54,617 nucleotides of DNA from positions 1 to 54,617 of the IMG/VR virus record IMGVR_UViG_3300042455_001551. One strand, 5' to 3'. Positions 31,465-47,055 of this stretch are shown here, piece by piece; position 1 is the first letter of the stretch, and the number at the start of each line of letters is the position of its first letter. The position numbers and the translations under genes are program-made. The notes under the pieces are model-generated. The model searched no databases and was not told the DNA's origin. It worked only from the letters and a program-made list of their open reading frames with translations. Origin of the DNA: a virus.

Positions 31465-31749
31465 ATGTTTGAATTAGAAGATAATGTAGCAAAAGACCGT
31501 GAAAAGTTAGGCTACGAAGAGTTTAAAGAAGTTGTTTTAGAGAATATTTCTAAAGTAATTACTAATCGCGCGCATATTGAAGAAAACTATGATTTCTATA
31601 TTTCTGTTATCTTCAAAATGTATGAGATGTATAAGAATGATTTGTATAACCCAATTAGTATAAGTAGTTGTGTTAAACTATTTGACGTATTTTTATACAG
31701 TTTCTTTAAATATAATCCGTCTGGTGAACTTCCAGAAGATTTAGTTTAA
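31465..31749 (+). CDS. Unknown protein, first right-arm gene, possibly leaderless, 94 aa
   Basis: A small acidic helical protein (EEFKEVVLENISKVI, FKMYEMYKNDLY). Its start codon lies directly at the expected transcription start, which implies a leaderless mRNA. As the first gene after the divergent promoter it may be an immediate-early factor. No family recognised. Confidence 0.6.
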   Translation: MFELEDNVAKDREKLGYEEFKEVVLENISKVITNRAHIEENYDFYISVIFKMYEMYKNDLYNPISISSCVKLFDVFLYSFFKYNPSGELPEDLV

Positions 31750-31756
31750 TTTAAAT

Positions 31757-31787
31757 TTGTTTTTGTCGAATATTTTTCGTATATTTG
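31757..31787 (+). promoter_or_regulatory. Promoter for the primase transcript and its long leader
   Basis: TTG, 20 nt, TATATTTG. The sequence TTTTTCG before the -7 element recurs in the promoter at 42236. The primase start is 190 nt downstream, an unusually long leader for this phage. Confidence 0.8.
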
Positions 31788-31793
31788 CATTTT

Positions 31794-31977
31794 AAAATTC
31801 GGTTTTATTGTTTTGTGCCGCAAACAAACAAAATTTTATTGGAATAAACACTTTATATGTTGGCGAAGATACATGTAGAGATTAAAATATAAAGAACTGA
31901 AAAGCTCTATTAACAGAACAGTATATCTTCGCACCATTACTGTTTTTTGTTTTTAGGGCTTTTCGCATTTTATAAAA
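31794..31977 (+). promoter_or_regulatory. Structured 5' leader of the primase gene: candidate RNA switch or attenuator
   Basis: The leader has three nested or competing pairings. (1) GCGAAGATA at 31863-31871 is fully complementary to TATCTTCGC at 31924-31932. (2) AACAGTA at 31917-31923 pairs with TACTGTT at 31938-31944; this hairpin is followed at once by TTTTGTTTTT, like an intrinsic terminator, and its 14-nt loop contains the TATCTTCGC of pairing 1, so the two can form a pseudoknot. (3) GAAAAGCTCTA at 31899-31909 pairs with TAGGGCTTTTC at 31954-31964 and encloses the hairpin, while its CTCTA part can alternatively pair with TAGAG at 31876-31880. This is the layout of a regulatory RNA; no known riboswitch family is recognised. 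Confidence 0.6.
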
Positions 31978-33165
31978 ATGGAAAAAGATAATTACATATT
32001 AGATTACTTTTATTGCACAAAGAATTGTAACGTTATAAAACAAATTTCTGTTTATGACTGGTTTAACTGTATTAAAGAAGGAGAGTATTCAGATTTAATA
32101 TTAAAAGCTAGAAACGGAGAATTAGATTATGATACAACAAAAACAGAACAACTTCCTTGTGTTGTTTACAACTTTAATTTTAACGGTTATAAAAATAAGT
32201 CAAACATAGTTGCACCTACTGGGTTACTGTATGTTGATATTGATGCACCAGATTTTAAAATAGAAAATGTAAATAAATCAGATATTTTTGCATACTATAA
32301 ATCATTTGGTGGTAAAGGTTATTCTATTGTTATTCGTGTAGACGGATTAACAGAGGATAATTTTAATGAAACCTATGCGTACGTATGTTCTAAATTAGAA
32401 ATATCTAATTATGTTGATTTAGGAGCTAAAAAAACTACACAATTCAATGTACTCTCTTATGATGAGAATCTTTACCTTAATACTAAATCTAAAATATTTA
32501 AAAGTATTAATCTTTCCCCCCTTTGTGAAATAAATAAAAAAAAGAAAGCATATAGCACACAGTGGGGGGAAAATGGAAACAATGTAAGATTTGATAATCG
32601 AGCAGACTATTTAGAAAATGAAGAGTCTGTTATAAAGAACATAGAAGGCTTTGATTTTATACAAGCAAAACTACTTTACAAAAAAGTATCAAAAAATAGA
32701 AATAATATATTATTAGCATATTGTACAAATTTAGTTTGGTTGAATCCAAATATATACGAAGATAGATTGCACGCTATTATGACAGCAGTAAACTTTAATA
32801 ATTTTACAAACCCTGTTGATGAGCCACAATTACAAAGGATTATTAGTTCTATTTTAAAATACAAAAAAGAAGGTACTTTAAGACCTACTGGAGTTATAAA
32901 AAGAAAAGCTTTATTTGGTAAATACTGCGGATTAAGTAAAAACGAAAAATTAGCAGTTTGTAGAGAAGTGTCTTCCGAATCGAAAGAAAAAGCGTCACGA
33001 GAGAAAATACAAAATATTTTAGATTGTTGGGATTTTGTTAAATTAGGAAAAATAACACAGCAAAGTATTTATAAAAATCATAATATTTCAAAAAAAACAA
33101 TTGAAAAATATTATAAAGATTATAAAAAAGAAATAGAAATGTTGAATAAAACTTGCAAAGTATAA
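31978..33165 (+). CDS. VirE_N/BT4734-type primase-like protein, 395 aa
   Basis: The N-terminal 190 residues match the BT4734/VirE N-terminal domain, a branch of the archaeo-eukaryotic primase fold. The metal motif is LLYVDIDAPD (Asp-x-Asp), followed by GGKGYSIVIRV and by FNVLSYDENLYLN. The middle (about 210-310) is helical, as in the PriCT-like part that follows such domains. The last 60 residues end in an HTH-like segment (GKITQQSIYKNHNISKKTIEKYY). No helicase domain is fused; the separate SF2 helicase two genes on may serve. It should prime phage DNA synthesis. Confidence 0.7.
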   Translation: MEKDNYILDYFYCTKNCNVIKQISVYDWFNCIKEGEYSDLILKARNGELDYDTTKTEQLPCVVYNFNFNGYKNKSNIVAPTGLLYVDIDAPDFKIENVNKSDIFAYYKSFGGKGYSIVIRVDGLTEDNFNETYAYVCSKLEISNYVDLGAKKTTQFNVLSYDENLYLNTKSKIFKSINLSPLCEINKKKKAYSTQWGENGNNVRFDNRADYLENEESVIKNIEGFDFIQAKLLYKKVSKNRNNILLAYCTNLVWLNPNIYEDRLHAIMTAVNFNNFTNPVDEPQLQRIISSILKYKKEGTLRPTGVIKRKALFGKYCGLSKNEKLAVCREVSSESKEKASREKIQNILDCWDFVKLGKITQQSIYKNHNISKKTIEKYYKDYKKEIEMLNKTCKV

Positions 33166-33183
33166 TTATTTTTTGTATATTTG
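33153..33183 (+). promoter_or_regulatory. Promoter inside the primase 3' end for the helicase operon
   Basis: TTG, 20 nt, TATATTTG. The -33 element lies in the last codons of the primase gene, so the promoter overlaps coding sequence. The next ATG is 19 nt beyond it. Confidence 0.8.
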
Positions 33184-33201
33184 CAGTCTAAAATATTAAA
33201 A

Positions 33202-33429
33202 ATGGAAAAGTTAAAAACTATAGAAAGATTTATAAATTCACCAGAAGAAATAGTTTTTGGAGTAAGGCTTGGGGAATACGAAGGTAATTCAACAATAACA
33301 GAAGTGTATATAAAGTCAGACTCAATTGAAAACATTGAAACGTCTTTTAAAATAAAAGGTTCAATAGAGAGAGAAGGTTTAGTTTTTATTTTTAAAACTT
33401 TGTCCGATATATTAAAAAACGAAATATAA
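33202..33429 (+). CDS. Unknown small protein, 75 aa
   Basis: The ATG at 33202 is chosen because the frame's earlier start lies inside the promoter. The product is a small beta/alpha protein (FGVRLGEYEGNSTITEVYIKSD). Not recognised. First gene of the helicase transcript. Confidence 0.55.
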   Translation: MEKLKTIERFINSPEEIVFGVRLGEYEGNSTITEVYIKSDSIENIETSFKIKGSIEREGLVFIFKTLSDILKNEI

Positions 33430-33435
33430 ATAAAT

Positions 33436-33774
33436 ATGAAAGGTATGCATCAGTTTGACCAAAAAATGTATAGAGTAGAGGTATTAGATAATAGTAATTA
33501 TTTTGTTATTGCCTATTCTAAAGTTCACGCAATTGTAGAACTTGTTAATATGAATATTAAAAATGGTATTATGGATTATGCAGGCGAATATGATACAAAA
33601 AATGTTCATTTATTAAGCAATAGAGAAATGAATAATATAATAATTGAATATAACTACGCTACGGAAGATACGGAATCTGACACGCTTTTAAATATATTCA
33701 AAGATTTAACTAAATTTGAAGATGGTAAACAAGAGTTTTTTGGAGTTGTCGGAGATGATTTTATAGCATACTAG
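33436..33774 (+). CDS. Unknown acidic protein, 112 aa
   Basis: Not recognised. The N-terminal half (RVEVLDNSNYFVIAYSKVHAIVELV) resembles small phage proteins with an alternating strand/helix fold; the rest is acidic. It ends 2 bp before the helicase start, so the two are probably coupled. Confidence 0.55.
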   Translation: MKGMHQFDQKMYRVEVLDNSNYFVIAYSKVHAIVELVNMNIKNGIMDYAGEYDTKNVHLLSNREMNNIIIEYNYATEDTESDTLLNIFKDLTKFEDGKQEFFGVVGDDFIAY

Positions 33775-40705: not shown

Positions 40706-40712
40706 AATAAAT

Positions 40713-40743
40713 TTGCACAATTAAAAATAATTTCGTATATTTG
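40713..40743 (+). promoter_or_regulatory. Promoter for the non-coding/tRNA region
   Basis: TTG, 20 nt, TATATTTG, with TTTCG directly before the -7 element. It lies 8 bp after the PhoH-like stop. No start codon follows for about 600 nt, so its first product is a non-coding RNA. Confidence 0.82.
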
Positions 40744-40749
40744 CAGAAG

Positions 40750-41262
40750 AATTAAAAACACAGAGAAAGACAAACAAGTAATGGGACTTTTCTAGTACAG
40801 TTACAACACTATCAAGAGGTGTTAATGTTTGTTCGAGTATGATAAAAGTAGAGAGTTCGATTCCTCATTTAATACCTATGGTTTAGGTTGCTTTATCCCA
40901 ATCTTGATGGATGCGTTTTTAATTTTTTGTCGGCGGACCGTAAACGTGGTAGAAAGTGTGGCGAAAGAGTGTAGAGTAAGACTACAACATTGGTAGATGC
41001 TATCCTTACGGAGAGTCCGAGTTAAAAACGGCGTTGGTGATTCAAATTCACCCACTTTCTCAAGCCGTTGTTTTGTACTCCGCTGTAGAGGATTCTGTTC
41101 AACGTAAAATAAACAGAGATTGATTGTAATACAGCAGTTATAGAGGTTAAACTTTAAAACCTATCTTCCTTCCTGGCGATGATAATGCCTTATTTGGATT
41201 AAAATAATAAAATAACATAGTGTAAAAAAGAGTAGTGAAAAAGCTTTAAAGTAGCTACTCTA
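40750..41262 (+). ncRNA. Structured non-coding region between PhoH-like gene and tRNA-Gln
   Basis: About 510 nt without a credible ORF follows a strong promoter. It contains: ACACT-ATCAAGA-GGTGT at 40806-40823, which is a good tRNA-Leu(CAA) anticodon arm with T33; GAG(A)G-TTCGATT-CCTC near 40851-40866, a T-arm with one bulged A; the tRNA-like element at 40951-41060 (listed separately); GCTGTA...TACAGC enclosing TCTGTT...AACAGA in 41080-41136; GGTT...AACC near 41146-41162; and AGAGTAG/CTACTCT at 41229-41261, just before tRNA-Gln. So the region holds several folded units, some of them damaged or unusual tRNAs. It may also be one long RNA from which tRNA-Gln is cut. Confidence 0.55.
40951..41060 (+). 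tRNA. tRNA-like element (Leu-like features), oversized and not clearly functional
   Basis: A perfect acceptor stem (AGAAAGTG with CACTTTCT) and a perfect T-arm (GGTGA-TTCAAAT-TCACC) stand at the right mutual distance. The segment TTGGTAGATGC matches the D-loop of bacterial tRNA-Leu, and TCCTTACGGA matches its variable arm. But the total of 109-110 nt is about 22 too long, mainly because of a hairpin TGTAG-AGTAAGA-CTACA inside what should be the D-loop. The best anticodon loop (GTTAAAA, Leu TAA) sits on a stem of only three pairs. It is a degenerate, inserted or novel tRNA-like RNA. Confidence 0.4.
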
Positions 41263-44154: not shown

Positions 44155-44289
44155 ATGATAAAAGAAAAGGATATCTTAATAAGGATTGATGAAGAAACTA
44201 AAAATAAAGCTAAACAAAAAGCGAAGTCAGGTGGTTTATCTTTATCTTCTTGGGTTAGAACATTAATTCTTAAAGACTTGAAAGAGTAA
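44155..44289 (+). CDS. Ribbon-helix-helix protein upstream of TnpB, 44 aa
   Basis: The protein is the length of a minimal RHH (Arc/CopG type): strand DILIRIDEE, helix KNKAKQKAKSG, turn, then helix SSWVRTLILKDL. RHH dimers bind operators, often near their own promoter. Its stop and the TnpB start share bases (TAATG), so the two are translated in sequence. It probably regulates the operon or assists TnpB. Confidence 0.7.
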   Translation: MIKEKDILIRIDEETKNKAKQKAKSGGLSLSSWVRTLILKDLKE

Positions 44290-45467
44290 TGATAACCTAT
44301 ACCTTTAAAATAAAAACTACTAAATCCCTTGAATTAAAGTTTGAAGAGCATCTAAACATAACTAGATATATCTACAATTTAGCAAAAGAGACTAAAGAAT
44401 ATGCTTATTCTAAAGGTGTGAAATTAAGTAAGTTTGATTTATGCAAACAATTACCAGAACTTAAAAAAGAATTTACTTGGATTTTTAATGTAAATGCTAA
44501 CACATTACAAAGTACAATAGAAAGACTTGATAAAAGCTATAAAAAGTTTTTCAAAGATTTTAAAGAAGGTAAAATTTCAAAACTAAAACAGGATTACATC
44601 AACAAATGTTTAAAAAATGGAACAGAAATTAATCAAAAGAAACTATTTGAAATTGGAAAGCCCAAATGGGCAAAGAAAAAAGACTGGGAATCAATAGAAT
44701 TTAATCAAGGTAATACAAAAAGAATAACTCCAGATTTAAGATTTGAAAAAGACGGAAAATTTAATTTACCAAAATTAGGAAAAGTAAAAATATTTAAAAG
44801 TAGAGAAGTATATGGAAACATAAAATTAGCAAGAGTAGTTAAAAAAGTTGACGGTTGGTACTTACAAATAGTTACAGACCACGAAATCCAAAAATGCAAT
44901 AACCAAGCACAAGTAGGAATTGATGTAGGGATAACACATTTTGCAGTTACCTCAGACGGTCAATTTTTTGAGAATATTAAAACAACTAACAAGTATGCTA
45001 AAAAATTAGCAGATGCTCAAAGAAAGTTAGCTTTGAAGAAAAGAGGTTCTAACAACTTTTACAAAGAAGTAGAAAAAGTAAAGAAAATCTATTTAAAAAT
45101 ACAAAGAGTTAGAGAAGATTATCTTCATAAAGTTTCAAGAGAGTTAGCTAATAATTATCAAACAGTTTTTGTAGAGGATTTAGACGTATCAAAAATGGTA
45201 CAAAATAAAAACTATTCAAAAGCTATTTCAGATGTTAGTTGGAGTAAATTTGCTCAATACTTAGAGTACAAAACAGAATTAATAAAAATAGATGCTAAAT
45301 ATAGTTCACAAGAATGTAATAATTGTGGGTATGTTGCAAAAGAAAACAGACCTAATCAAGAAACGTTTAAATGTGTTAAATGTTCTCACGAAGGTAATGC
45401 AGATTTTTTAGCGTCATTAACAATTTTAAAGCGTGGACAAACGCTACTAGAGAATTATGATAAATAG
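44289..45467 (+). CDS. tnpB: TnpB-family RNA-guided nuclease (IS200/IS605 OrfB), 392 aa
   Basis: The RuvC residues seem intact: Asp212 in GIDVG, Glu296 in VFVEDLD, and Asp372 in GNADFLASLTIL. The zinc finger between the last two has Cys343, Cys346, Cys362 and Cys365 (CNNCG...CVKC). The N-terminal wedge-like part (TRYIYNLAKETKEYAY) is typical. TnpB proteins cut DNA guided by a transcript of the element's right end (omega RNA). No TnpA is present, and the gene is joined on both sides to phage genes (TAATG before, 11-bp overlap with the GroEL-like gene after). It looks incorporated in the phage operon rather than inserted as a whole element. A hairpin lies in its last codons. Confidence 0.9.
   Translation: MITYTFKIKTTKSLELKFEEHLNITRYIYNLAKETKEYAYSKGVKLSKFDLCKQLPELKKEFTWIFNVNANTLQSTIERLDKSYKKFFKDFKEGKISKLKQDYINKCLKNGTEINQKKLFEIGKPKWAKKKDWESIEFNQGNTKRITPDLRFEKDGKFNLPKLGKVKIFKSREVYGNIKLARVVKKVDGWYLQIVTDHEIQKCNNQAQVGIDVGITHFAVTSDGQFFENIKTTNKYAKKLADAQRKLALKKRGSNNFYKEVEKVKKIYLKIQRVREDYLHKVSRELANNYQTVFVEDLDVSKMVQNKNYSKAISDVSWSKFAQYLEYKTELIKIDAKYSSQECNNCGYVAKENRPNQETFKCVKCSHEGNADFLASLTILKRGQTLLENYDK
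45430..45445 (+). other. Hairpin in the last codons of tnpB (possible omega RNA stem)
   Basis: AGCGT pairs with ACGCT around a 6-nt loop. In IS200/IS605 elements the guide RNA scaffold is made from the 3' end of tnpB, so this stem is where such a structure would lie. The following bases are the start of the GroEL-like gene, which would be the guide if a canonical RNA were made. Confidence 0.35.
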
Positions 45468-47055
45468 TTTAAAAAGAACTCCGTTAAAGGGGGTTGTCAA
45501 TATATTGATTAAAGATTATGACCTTTTAGATGAAGGTTATTTACAAGCTTGTGAGGCAGTTGCTCAAACTTTAGGTGCTGAAGGTAAGTATTCGCTATTA
45601 GACAGCGGAAACGATAAAGATGCACCAATTTTAACAAAAGACGGTGTTTCTGTAGCTTTAAGAATTAGGTTTGCAGAGCCAGCAAAAAACTTTGGTGCTT
45701 TACAAGCTATTCAAGGTGCTGTATCCACTTTAAAAAAGTCTGGAGATAGTACTACTACAACAATGGTCTTTCAAAAAGCTTTCTTAAACAATTTCAAGAG
45801 AAAAAATTTCAATAAAGCCGTAGAAAGAGGTATAAAAGCAGCAGTTAGTGAAGTGTATAGTAATTTAGATTATTTTGCTATAGATACAGATGAAAATTCA
45901 CTTAGAATGATTGCTAACACTTCTTGTAATAACGATACAGAGTTAGGTGGTAAGATAGTTCAAGCTTTTAATTCTGTTGGTAGAGACGGCGTTATAGAAG
46001 TTTCAAAAAATGAAAATACAGAAGATATAAAAGTTATTGAGCAAAGTGGAATGGTGTTACCTAATCAAGGTTTTTCTTCTCCATTTTTTATAAACAAAGA
46101 ATCTAAACCAGTATTTGAAGACGAGAAGGTTTCTGTTTTATGTTTATCTATCTGGCAAGAAAATACAGAGGTTTTAGACTTTTTAAAATACTTTGTACAA
46201 AGAAACGGTAATAAAGCGCCTTTATTAATCTTTACAGAACGACCTATTACAGAATTTAAAGACAGATTGATTGTTTTAAAGAATGCAGGAGTAAATATTT
46301 GTTTAGTTGGACTTGCTGTTCAATCAGAATATGAAAATGTATCTTTATTGAACGATATTGCTATGTTCACTGGAGCAGAAGTTTACAATCCAGACACCGT
46401 TAAGAGAGATAAAGATAATAATCCTATTTTTGTTACAGGTTTTGCCGATAAAGCAGTTATTTCAGATGACCAAACTGTACTTTCGGTAGCGAATATCCCT
46501 CAAGAAGTGTTCGATGCAGTTGAAATTTTGAGAGATAAAGAAGATAAAACACCTTCAGACTTGGCTAGAATGAAAAGATTATCTGGCAAATCTTGTCTTA
46601 TTGAAGTAGGGGGTTTAACACCAAATGATATTAGAGAGAAGTATGACAGAGTTGACGATGCACTTGCTTCAGTTAAATCTGCTATTTCAGAAGGATATAT
46701 TCCAGGTGGAGGAAGTACTTTAGTGTTTATTTCTAATTTAATGTACAAAAAGTTTGCAAATAAAGATGAACAAAAGGGATATAACTTAGTAAAAACAGTT
46801 TTAAAGTCGCCAATGTTGCAAATCTTGAAAAACGCCAACAGAAAAAATAAAAAGTACTTTGGAATAAACTATTTAAAACACTCGGAAGATAAGTTTGGAG
46901 TTGGGTATAATGCAGTTAAAGATGAAATTTCAAATCTATTAACAGATGGTATTATTGACAGTAAAAAATCTATTAGAGTTGCTTTAGAATCAGCTTCAGA
47001 GTCGGCAATAAAAATGTTTAACATAGGCGTTGTAGTCCTATACCCAAAAGTTTAA
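45457..47055 (+). CDS. GroEL-like chaperonin, 532 aa
   Basis: The GroEL signature blocks are in order: APILTKDGVSVA (ATP site), KSGDSTTTTMVF with Asp97 for GroEL Asp87 in GDGTTT, CNNDTELGGKIVQAFNSVGRDGVIEV split over the intermediate domain, an apical domain about 190-370 that diverges, and RVDDALASVKSAISEGYIPGGG with Asp400/401 near the position of GroEL Asp398. The Gly/Met tail is missing; it ends VVVLYPKV. ATPase residues are therefore kept. Phage GroELs are known in some large phages and fold virion proteins. The gene overlaps tnpB by 11 bp and may be expressed with it. A GroES-like gene lies on the left arm. Confidence 0.88.
   Translation: MINSLKRTPLKGVVNILIKDYDLLDEGYLQACEAVAQTLGAEGKYSLLDSGNDKDAPILTKDGVSVALRIRFAEPAKNFGALQAIQGAVSTLKKSGDSTTTTMVFQKAFLNNFKRKNFNKAVERGIKAAVSEVYSNLDYFAIDTDENSLRMIANTSCNNDTELGGKIVQAFNSVGRDGVIEVSKNENTEDIKVIEQSGMVLPNQGFSSPFFINKESKPVFEDEKVSVLCLSIWQENTEVLDFLKYFVQRNGNKAPLLIFTERPITEFKDRLIVLKNAGVNICLVGLAVQSEYENVSLLNDIAMFTGAEVYNPDTVKRDKDNNPIFVTGFADKAVISDDQTVLSVANIPQEVFDAVEILRDKEDKTPSDLARMKRLSGKSCLIEVGGLTPNDIREKYDRVDDALASVKSAISEGYIPGGGSTLVFISNLMYKKFANKDEQKGYNLVKTVLKSPMLQILKNANRKNKKYFGINYLKHSEDKFGVGYNAVKDEISNLLTDGIIDSKKSIRVALESASESAIKMFNIGVVVLYPKV

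Follow-up and report, generated by a model that had tools for sequence, protein, structure and literature searches.

A kissing-loop leader RNA in front of replication and homing endonuclease genes of phages

We analyzed the DNA in front of a primase gene in a 54,617-nt stretch of a viral genome (IMG/VR record IMGVR_UViG_3300042455_001551; hereafter, the window) and found a leader that appears to belong to an undescribed RNA family of the leader RNA or attenuator kind. The comparison of sequences indicates that the leader is a real structured RNA whose structure is well supported and whose regulatory function is putative. In the aligned sequences, a hairpin (H1) is shown near the 5′ end, a second hairpin (H2) inside an outer stem (P1) by the start codon, and full complementarity between the two predicted apical loops. 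The element is probably a cis-acting 5′ leader RNA of ~110–200 nt that would hold down expression of the gene behind it.

Architecture of the primase leader

The source phage is crAss-like, with a terminase 32% identical to those of Cellulophaga phages phi17:2/phi4:1; its identity to the terminases of two contigs used for comparison was 71% and 53%. The leader lies on the + strand between two divergent transcription units of the window, and comprises the following features.

31465..31749, + strand: upstream small gene (94 aa), homologous in relatives at the same place (29% to L004; read in L008, L019, and L046)
31756..31789, + strand: promoter-like sequence of the Bacteroidota type (TTTG, 20 nt, TATATTTGCA), read from the sequence
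31851–31977, + strand: leader carrying the element, ending at the start codon at 31978
31851..31880, + strand: hairpin H1, CUUUAUAUGU/ACAUGUAGAG, 10 bp, predicted fold; the stem varies and pairing is kept in relatives
31863..31871, + strand: kissing segment in the H1 loop, GCGAAGATA, complementary to 31924–31932; its counterpart covaries in relatives
31888..31894, + strand: 5′ strand of stem P0, TATAAAG, predicted to pair with 31968–31974; same pair in L004 and L008
31899..31909, + strand: 5′ strand of outer stem P1, GAAAAGCTCTA, from the fold; P1 occurs in relatives with other sequence
31917..31944, + strand: hairpin H2, AACAGTA/TACTGTT (31917–31923/31938–31944) with a 14-nt loop, from the predicted fold and descriptor scan
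31924..31932, + strand: kissing segment in the H2 loop, TATCTTCGC, the reverse complement of GCGAAGATA
31943..31954, + strand: T-rich tract after H2, TTTTTTGTTTTT from 31943, read from the sequence
31954..31964, + strand: 3′ strand of P1, TAGGGCTTTTC, predicted to pair with 31899–31909 with one U·G pair
31968..31974, + strand: 3′ strand of P0, TTTTATA, predicted fold, immediately 5′ of the start codon region; also in L004 and L008
31978..33165, + strand: downstream gene, BT4734-like primase (395 aa), Pfam PF08800 (BT4734-like_N), PHROG primase/helicase

The preliminary description of this region had reported a 9-nt segment complementary to the loop of a 7-bp hairpin, an 11-bp stem enclosing that hairpin, and a T-rich run behind it, all of which are present: the two loops match perfectly over 9 nt, P1 surrounds H2 just 5′ of the primase start codon, and the run is the tract at 31943. 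The long-range pairing that it termed a pseudoknot also stands. Kissing loops is the better term, as GCGAAGATA is the loop of the 10-bp H1, which had been overlooked, and not a single-stranded spacer. It had further proposed that CTCTA (31905–31909) could pair alternatively with TAGAG upstream (31876–31880), so that two mutually exclusive folds would decide between early stop and read-through. Both 5-mers exist in the window, but TAGAG makes up the 3′ arm of H1, and the pair is not conserved: in relatives, the matches between the H1/spacer stretch and the 5′ arm of P1 are 4–7 nt long, the length expected by chance, and differ in sequence and place. These two observations leave mutually exclusive folds unsupported, and we consider such a switch very improbable.

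The leader region folded better than 200 of 200 shuffles (z = −3.68). When the upstream 110 nt were shuffled, a 9-nt match to the H2 loop arose in 0.1% of cases; chance 7-nt matches were not rare (3.4%). The H2 stem of the window contains only three G-C or U·G-free strong pairs, and a generic terminator scan with a loop limit of 8 nt did not flag this leader, whose H2 loop has 14 nt. On reading, most elements have a terminator-type hairpin and U-tract between promoter and start codon, with T6–T7 tracts in several and a weaker one in the window; a T-rich tract at H2 or P1 occurs in most relatives. The order of H2 in P1, then U-tracts, then the start codon resembles a leader terminator on reading.

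The earlier view of a structured RNA of no known class upstream of a primase was borne out by the BT4734-like_N match of the gene and by Rfam: a search of the window with Rfam 15 at the gathering score returned tRNA only, leaving the leader without a family match, and its sub-threshold matches (mir-268, rhtB) were weak and chance-like. A known riboswitch was rejected on the same Rfam result.

Across the window, TATATTTGCA and its one-mismatch forms were enriched (27 occurrences versus 10.9 expected). A similar −7 motif is located 5′ of H1 in most relatives, and in most elements H1 lies close behind the promoter-like motif. Doubled copies of the motif occur elsewhere in the window. One (40708, 40736) precedes a stretch of ~500 nt at 40708–41260 (+) that has no listed ORF of at least 60 aa on the + strand, lies before tRNA-Gln (41266), and is a candidate long noncoding RNA. 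Another (44100, 44128) precedes a TnpB-like gene (OrfB_IS605 plus Cas12f1-like TNB domain) at 44289–45467 (+) in this phage genome. A phage-encoded GroEL/Cpn60-like chaperonin is located at 45457–47055 (+).

Distribution of the layout among phages

A DNA similarity search with the leader gave chance matches only. A search by the pattern of conserved flanks yielded only L004, primase-based searches only L004 and the phage of L046, and an HTH-Rep-based search only the phages of L008 and L019, plus L049. The elements of L004, L008, and L019 were read by synteny, without a loop-match search. The small upstream gene is homologous in these three, and at the same place in L004, L008, L019, and L046 we found the same layout with unrelated sequence. 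The primase of L004 is 98% identical to that of the window, and its leader is unrelated in sequence upstream of the last ~30 nt; it nonetheless contains a hairpin with GTTAGAGC in the loop and a second one whose loop reads CGCTCTAACAATTA, together with a U-tract, the stem AAACCCTC/GGGGGTTT as enclosure, and, before the ATG, a TATAAAG/TTTTATA pair. L008 has the same layout with loops GTGGAAAG/CTTTCCAC, in front of a 300-aa protein that is replication starter-like on reading and has no Pfam family match, and L019 has the same pattern with CTAGGAATC/GATTCCTAG. L046 is a distant relative (terminase 28%) with the element before a primase 30% identical to that of the window. The crAss-like L017, L020–L024, L026, and L027 have a different, longer gap there, with no element in those read or by scans.

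The region 31943–33436 of the window, comprising the primase and the next small gene, shares 97.7% DNA identity with L004 over 1.49 kb; the terminases of the two phages are ~53% identical, and the break of high identity falls inside the leader. The primase cassette therefore seems to have been exchanged recently between the two lineages. A conserved noncoding stretch, CGTTTTGGACGTT...TCGTTACTTTTAAA, is located 5′ of the leader in L004 (2618–2680, +) and L008 (5760–5845, −) and is absent from the window; it is possibly a second RNA.

We scanned further sequences, along with shuffled controls, using a descriptor script that called for a pair of hairpins whose loops complement each other, plus an outer stem and a T-rich tract. 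A descriptor was used instead of a covariance model because the sequence is unconserved and such a model cannot encode loop–loop pairing. In the first scan, L046 and the window scored 48 each and L004 41; three shuffled copies of the data did not exceed 37. After spacing and promoter were included in the descriptor, scores of at least 50 (50–66) were obtained at 11 places in 1.34 Mb, and two shuffles reached maxima of 49 and 48. New elements were located before an HNH-like endonuclease (L072), an HNH-like fragment (L059), and the SSB-like/helicase/primase operon of the isolated Flavobacterium phage mumin6-2, and those of L057 and L067 had no long frame directly behind. Lower-scoring places with the same layout preceded a LAGLIDADG endonuclease (L058, 46) and a GIY-YIG endonuclease (L079, 45). 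Among GIY-YIG endonuclease loci of the viral collection, 9/80 scored at least 46 upstream of the gene, five shuffled sets having a maximum of 45, and several lower-scoring loci have the same layout. Among the elements in general, P1/H2 is followed by a U-tract, with the start codon within ~25 nt. No above-shuffle element was detected in phi46:1 or in the first 50 kb of either phi17:2 or crAss001, and a genome-collection pattern scan for the endonuclease subfamily gave none.

In total, ~two dozen further elements have the layout in common and are mostly unrelated in sequence. Some precede replication genes, in four crAss-like relatives and in Flavobacterium phage isolates, and others precede genes for homing endonucleases of the GIY-YIG, LAGLIDADG, and HNH-like types, so that the element, first described as a primase leader, is not specific to primases. 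Around the endonuclease genes, Rfam intron models gave no match at 12 loci, and a group I intron was rejected. In L058 (15226) and L072 (16172), which are different phages, the element lies directly behind the DNA polymerase gene together with unrelated homing endonucleases; this site appears to be a shared insertion hot spot.

Compensatory change and loop specificity

Compensatory changes at the paired positions in relatives, which the preliminary description had named as support for its proposal, were found in two sibling sets. Both sets were aligned by their flanks, independently of how the elements were found. L049 and L048 are 96.7% identical over 1.3 kb, and all 41 of 41 pairs are kept between their leaders; in the loop–loop pairing, 3/9 pairs are changed on both sides and none is broken, and H1 varies at 6/9 pairs with pairing kept, whereas P0, P1, and H2 are invariant. 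Among the Flavobacterium phages, mumin/snusmum (GTGGAACG in mumin) differ from hattifnatt/tooticki/filifjonk/lillamy (GTGAGACG, the tooticki or hattifnatt type) at two adjacent loop pairs (2/8), one GC to AU and one AU to GC, with no pair broken and P1 and H2 invariant. These counts are of sequences and not of events, the Flavobacterium set representing one type change and the L049/L048 set another. In both sets, the paired elements vary nowhere but in H1 and the loops. In the GIY-YIG leader group, the P1 sequence is conserved, and the loops and H2 stem change together (loop pairs CTGGTCC/GGACCAG, CTCGTAC/GTACGAG, CTGACC/GGTCAG, and CTGGTAC/GTACCAG); L167 and L172 differ by one compensated pair in a stem that includes part of the start codon. 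Loop–loop complementarity is kept by covariation, a feature in common with plasmid-type kissing RNA control (RepZ, pT181). A search for an additional copy of the loop segment, as a separate antisense partner might carry, found no third copy in the sequence covered of the window, G001, and G004 records.

A plain intrinsic terminator, complementary to an upstream hairpin by chance, would account for the terminator-like H2/P1, and 7-nt matches do arise by chance at the rate given above. The layout, however, turns up repeatedly on unrelated sequence with scores far exceeding those of shuffles, and the loop partners covary exactly; this explanation, to which we give practically no credence, is refuted by the compensated changes seen independently in two sibling sets. 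The stable, conserved architecture before replication genes would also suit a sensor with two folds and a signal that chooses between them, be it a riboswitch, a protein-binding site, or a thermosensor. Such a role is improbable: unrelated elements have no conserved unpaired sequence for a ligand pocket, the proposed competing stem is not conserved, and the elements precede genes of quite different function.

The fast change of the loops is not explained by a purely cis role. In the two most closely related sibling sets, H1 and the loops change faster than the stems, which suggests that loops must differ from those of other copies. Perhaps they are private, either to avoid cross-talk or as a trans-acting self/non-self specificity. 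In the latter case, the loops of one leader would pair with the leader of another copy and silence or release it, as plasmid antisense RNAs do, and would constitute an incompatibility or immunity type diversified by selection. We regard such trans action as rather unlikely, with evidence on both sides. Among the paired parts, the differences between L049 and L048, like those between the two Flavobacterium types, fall in H1 and the loops alone. The four loop pairs of the G002 phage are mutually weak, and sibling types cross-pair at −4.9 and ~−7 kcal/mol compared with −14 to −16 for their own pairs, the strength of which is partly by construction. In IncK plasmids, loop changes alone alter compatibility (PMC10724649). 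On the other side, both partners lie on one RNA, so that cis pairing should win, and a separate antisense promoter was not noticed. L136 and L137 have one loop type despite 50% protein identity, and L098 and L119 have CCGCCAAG in common, which argues against a universal diversifying force. For the mumin phages, a strictly lytic nature is reported (PMC7077304), which speaks against classical prophage immunity in this group. A more speculative and slightly less probable extension is an RNA-only phage self/non-self system, in which each replication or homing module would carry its own private pair of loops, leaders identical in this pair would recognize each other across co-infecting genomes, and selection would make mutually blind types.

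Putative mechanism and relation to known systems

The simplest reading, and the one we infer, is that of a lock, engaged when H1 kisses the terminator-like arm, that limits the expression of genes kept rare or timed by phages. Transcription would start at the TAnnTTTG promoter just upstream; H1 would fold first, and its loop would capture that of the emerging H2. The locked P1/H2 arm and the U-tracts would then end most transcripts early, and/or P0 and P1 would block the access of ribosomes to the start codon. Only a fraction of the transcripts, or those from another state controlled by the phage, would yield the primase, Rep-like protein, or homing endonuclease. As H1 and the loops change fast in the two most closely related sibling sets, each element would pair with itself and little with others in the cell.

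Several systems resemble this putative lock in part. In satellite phage P4, the leader of the alpha (primase) operon undergoes premature termination governed by RNA–RNA pairing with CI RNA; this is likewise a phage primase operon leader, but the P4 RNA is processed and acts in trans, in a temperate satellite. The RepZ leader of I-complex plasmids (IncB/IncI/IncK) combines a pseudoknot with kissing of RNAI. It shares with our element the place before a replication gene and the long-range hairpin-loop interaction; the kissing partner there is a separate antisense RNA, whereas the phage element has both partners in one leader along with a terminator-like hairpin. Loop changes define compatibility types in these RepZ systems (PMC10724649). 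The pT181 repC attenuator is similar in having a 5′ hairpin in a loop–loop kissing step and an intrinsic terminator before the replication gene (PMC4878617), but it relies on a trans-acting antisense RNA together with an anti-terminator, and the phage element has no conserved anti-terminator. In T4, hairpins before the homing endonuclease genes I-TevI, segB, and mobE limit translation (PMC2988022), also placing RNA structure in front of phage homing endonucleases. The T4 hairpins lie over the Shine-Dalgarno site on long early transcripts, unlike the two kissing hairpins just behind a promoter and the U-tract before the start codon in our element. We know of no analogue that combines kissing partners in one leader, a terminator-like hairpin, conservation of shape and not of sequence, and a link to homing endonucleases. 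The literature searched yielded no description of the element, and one may exist elsewhere.

If this reading is true, a structured phage RNA family present in crAss-like, Flavobacterium, and other phages would be out of reach of sequence-based RNA searches, because mainly its shape and self-match are conserved. The control of phage replication starters would be linked with that of homing endonucleases. The two natural loop types in close, cultured Flavobacterium phages with the same hosts would make the purpose of the loop change directly testable.
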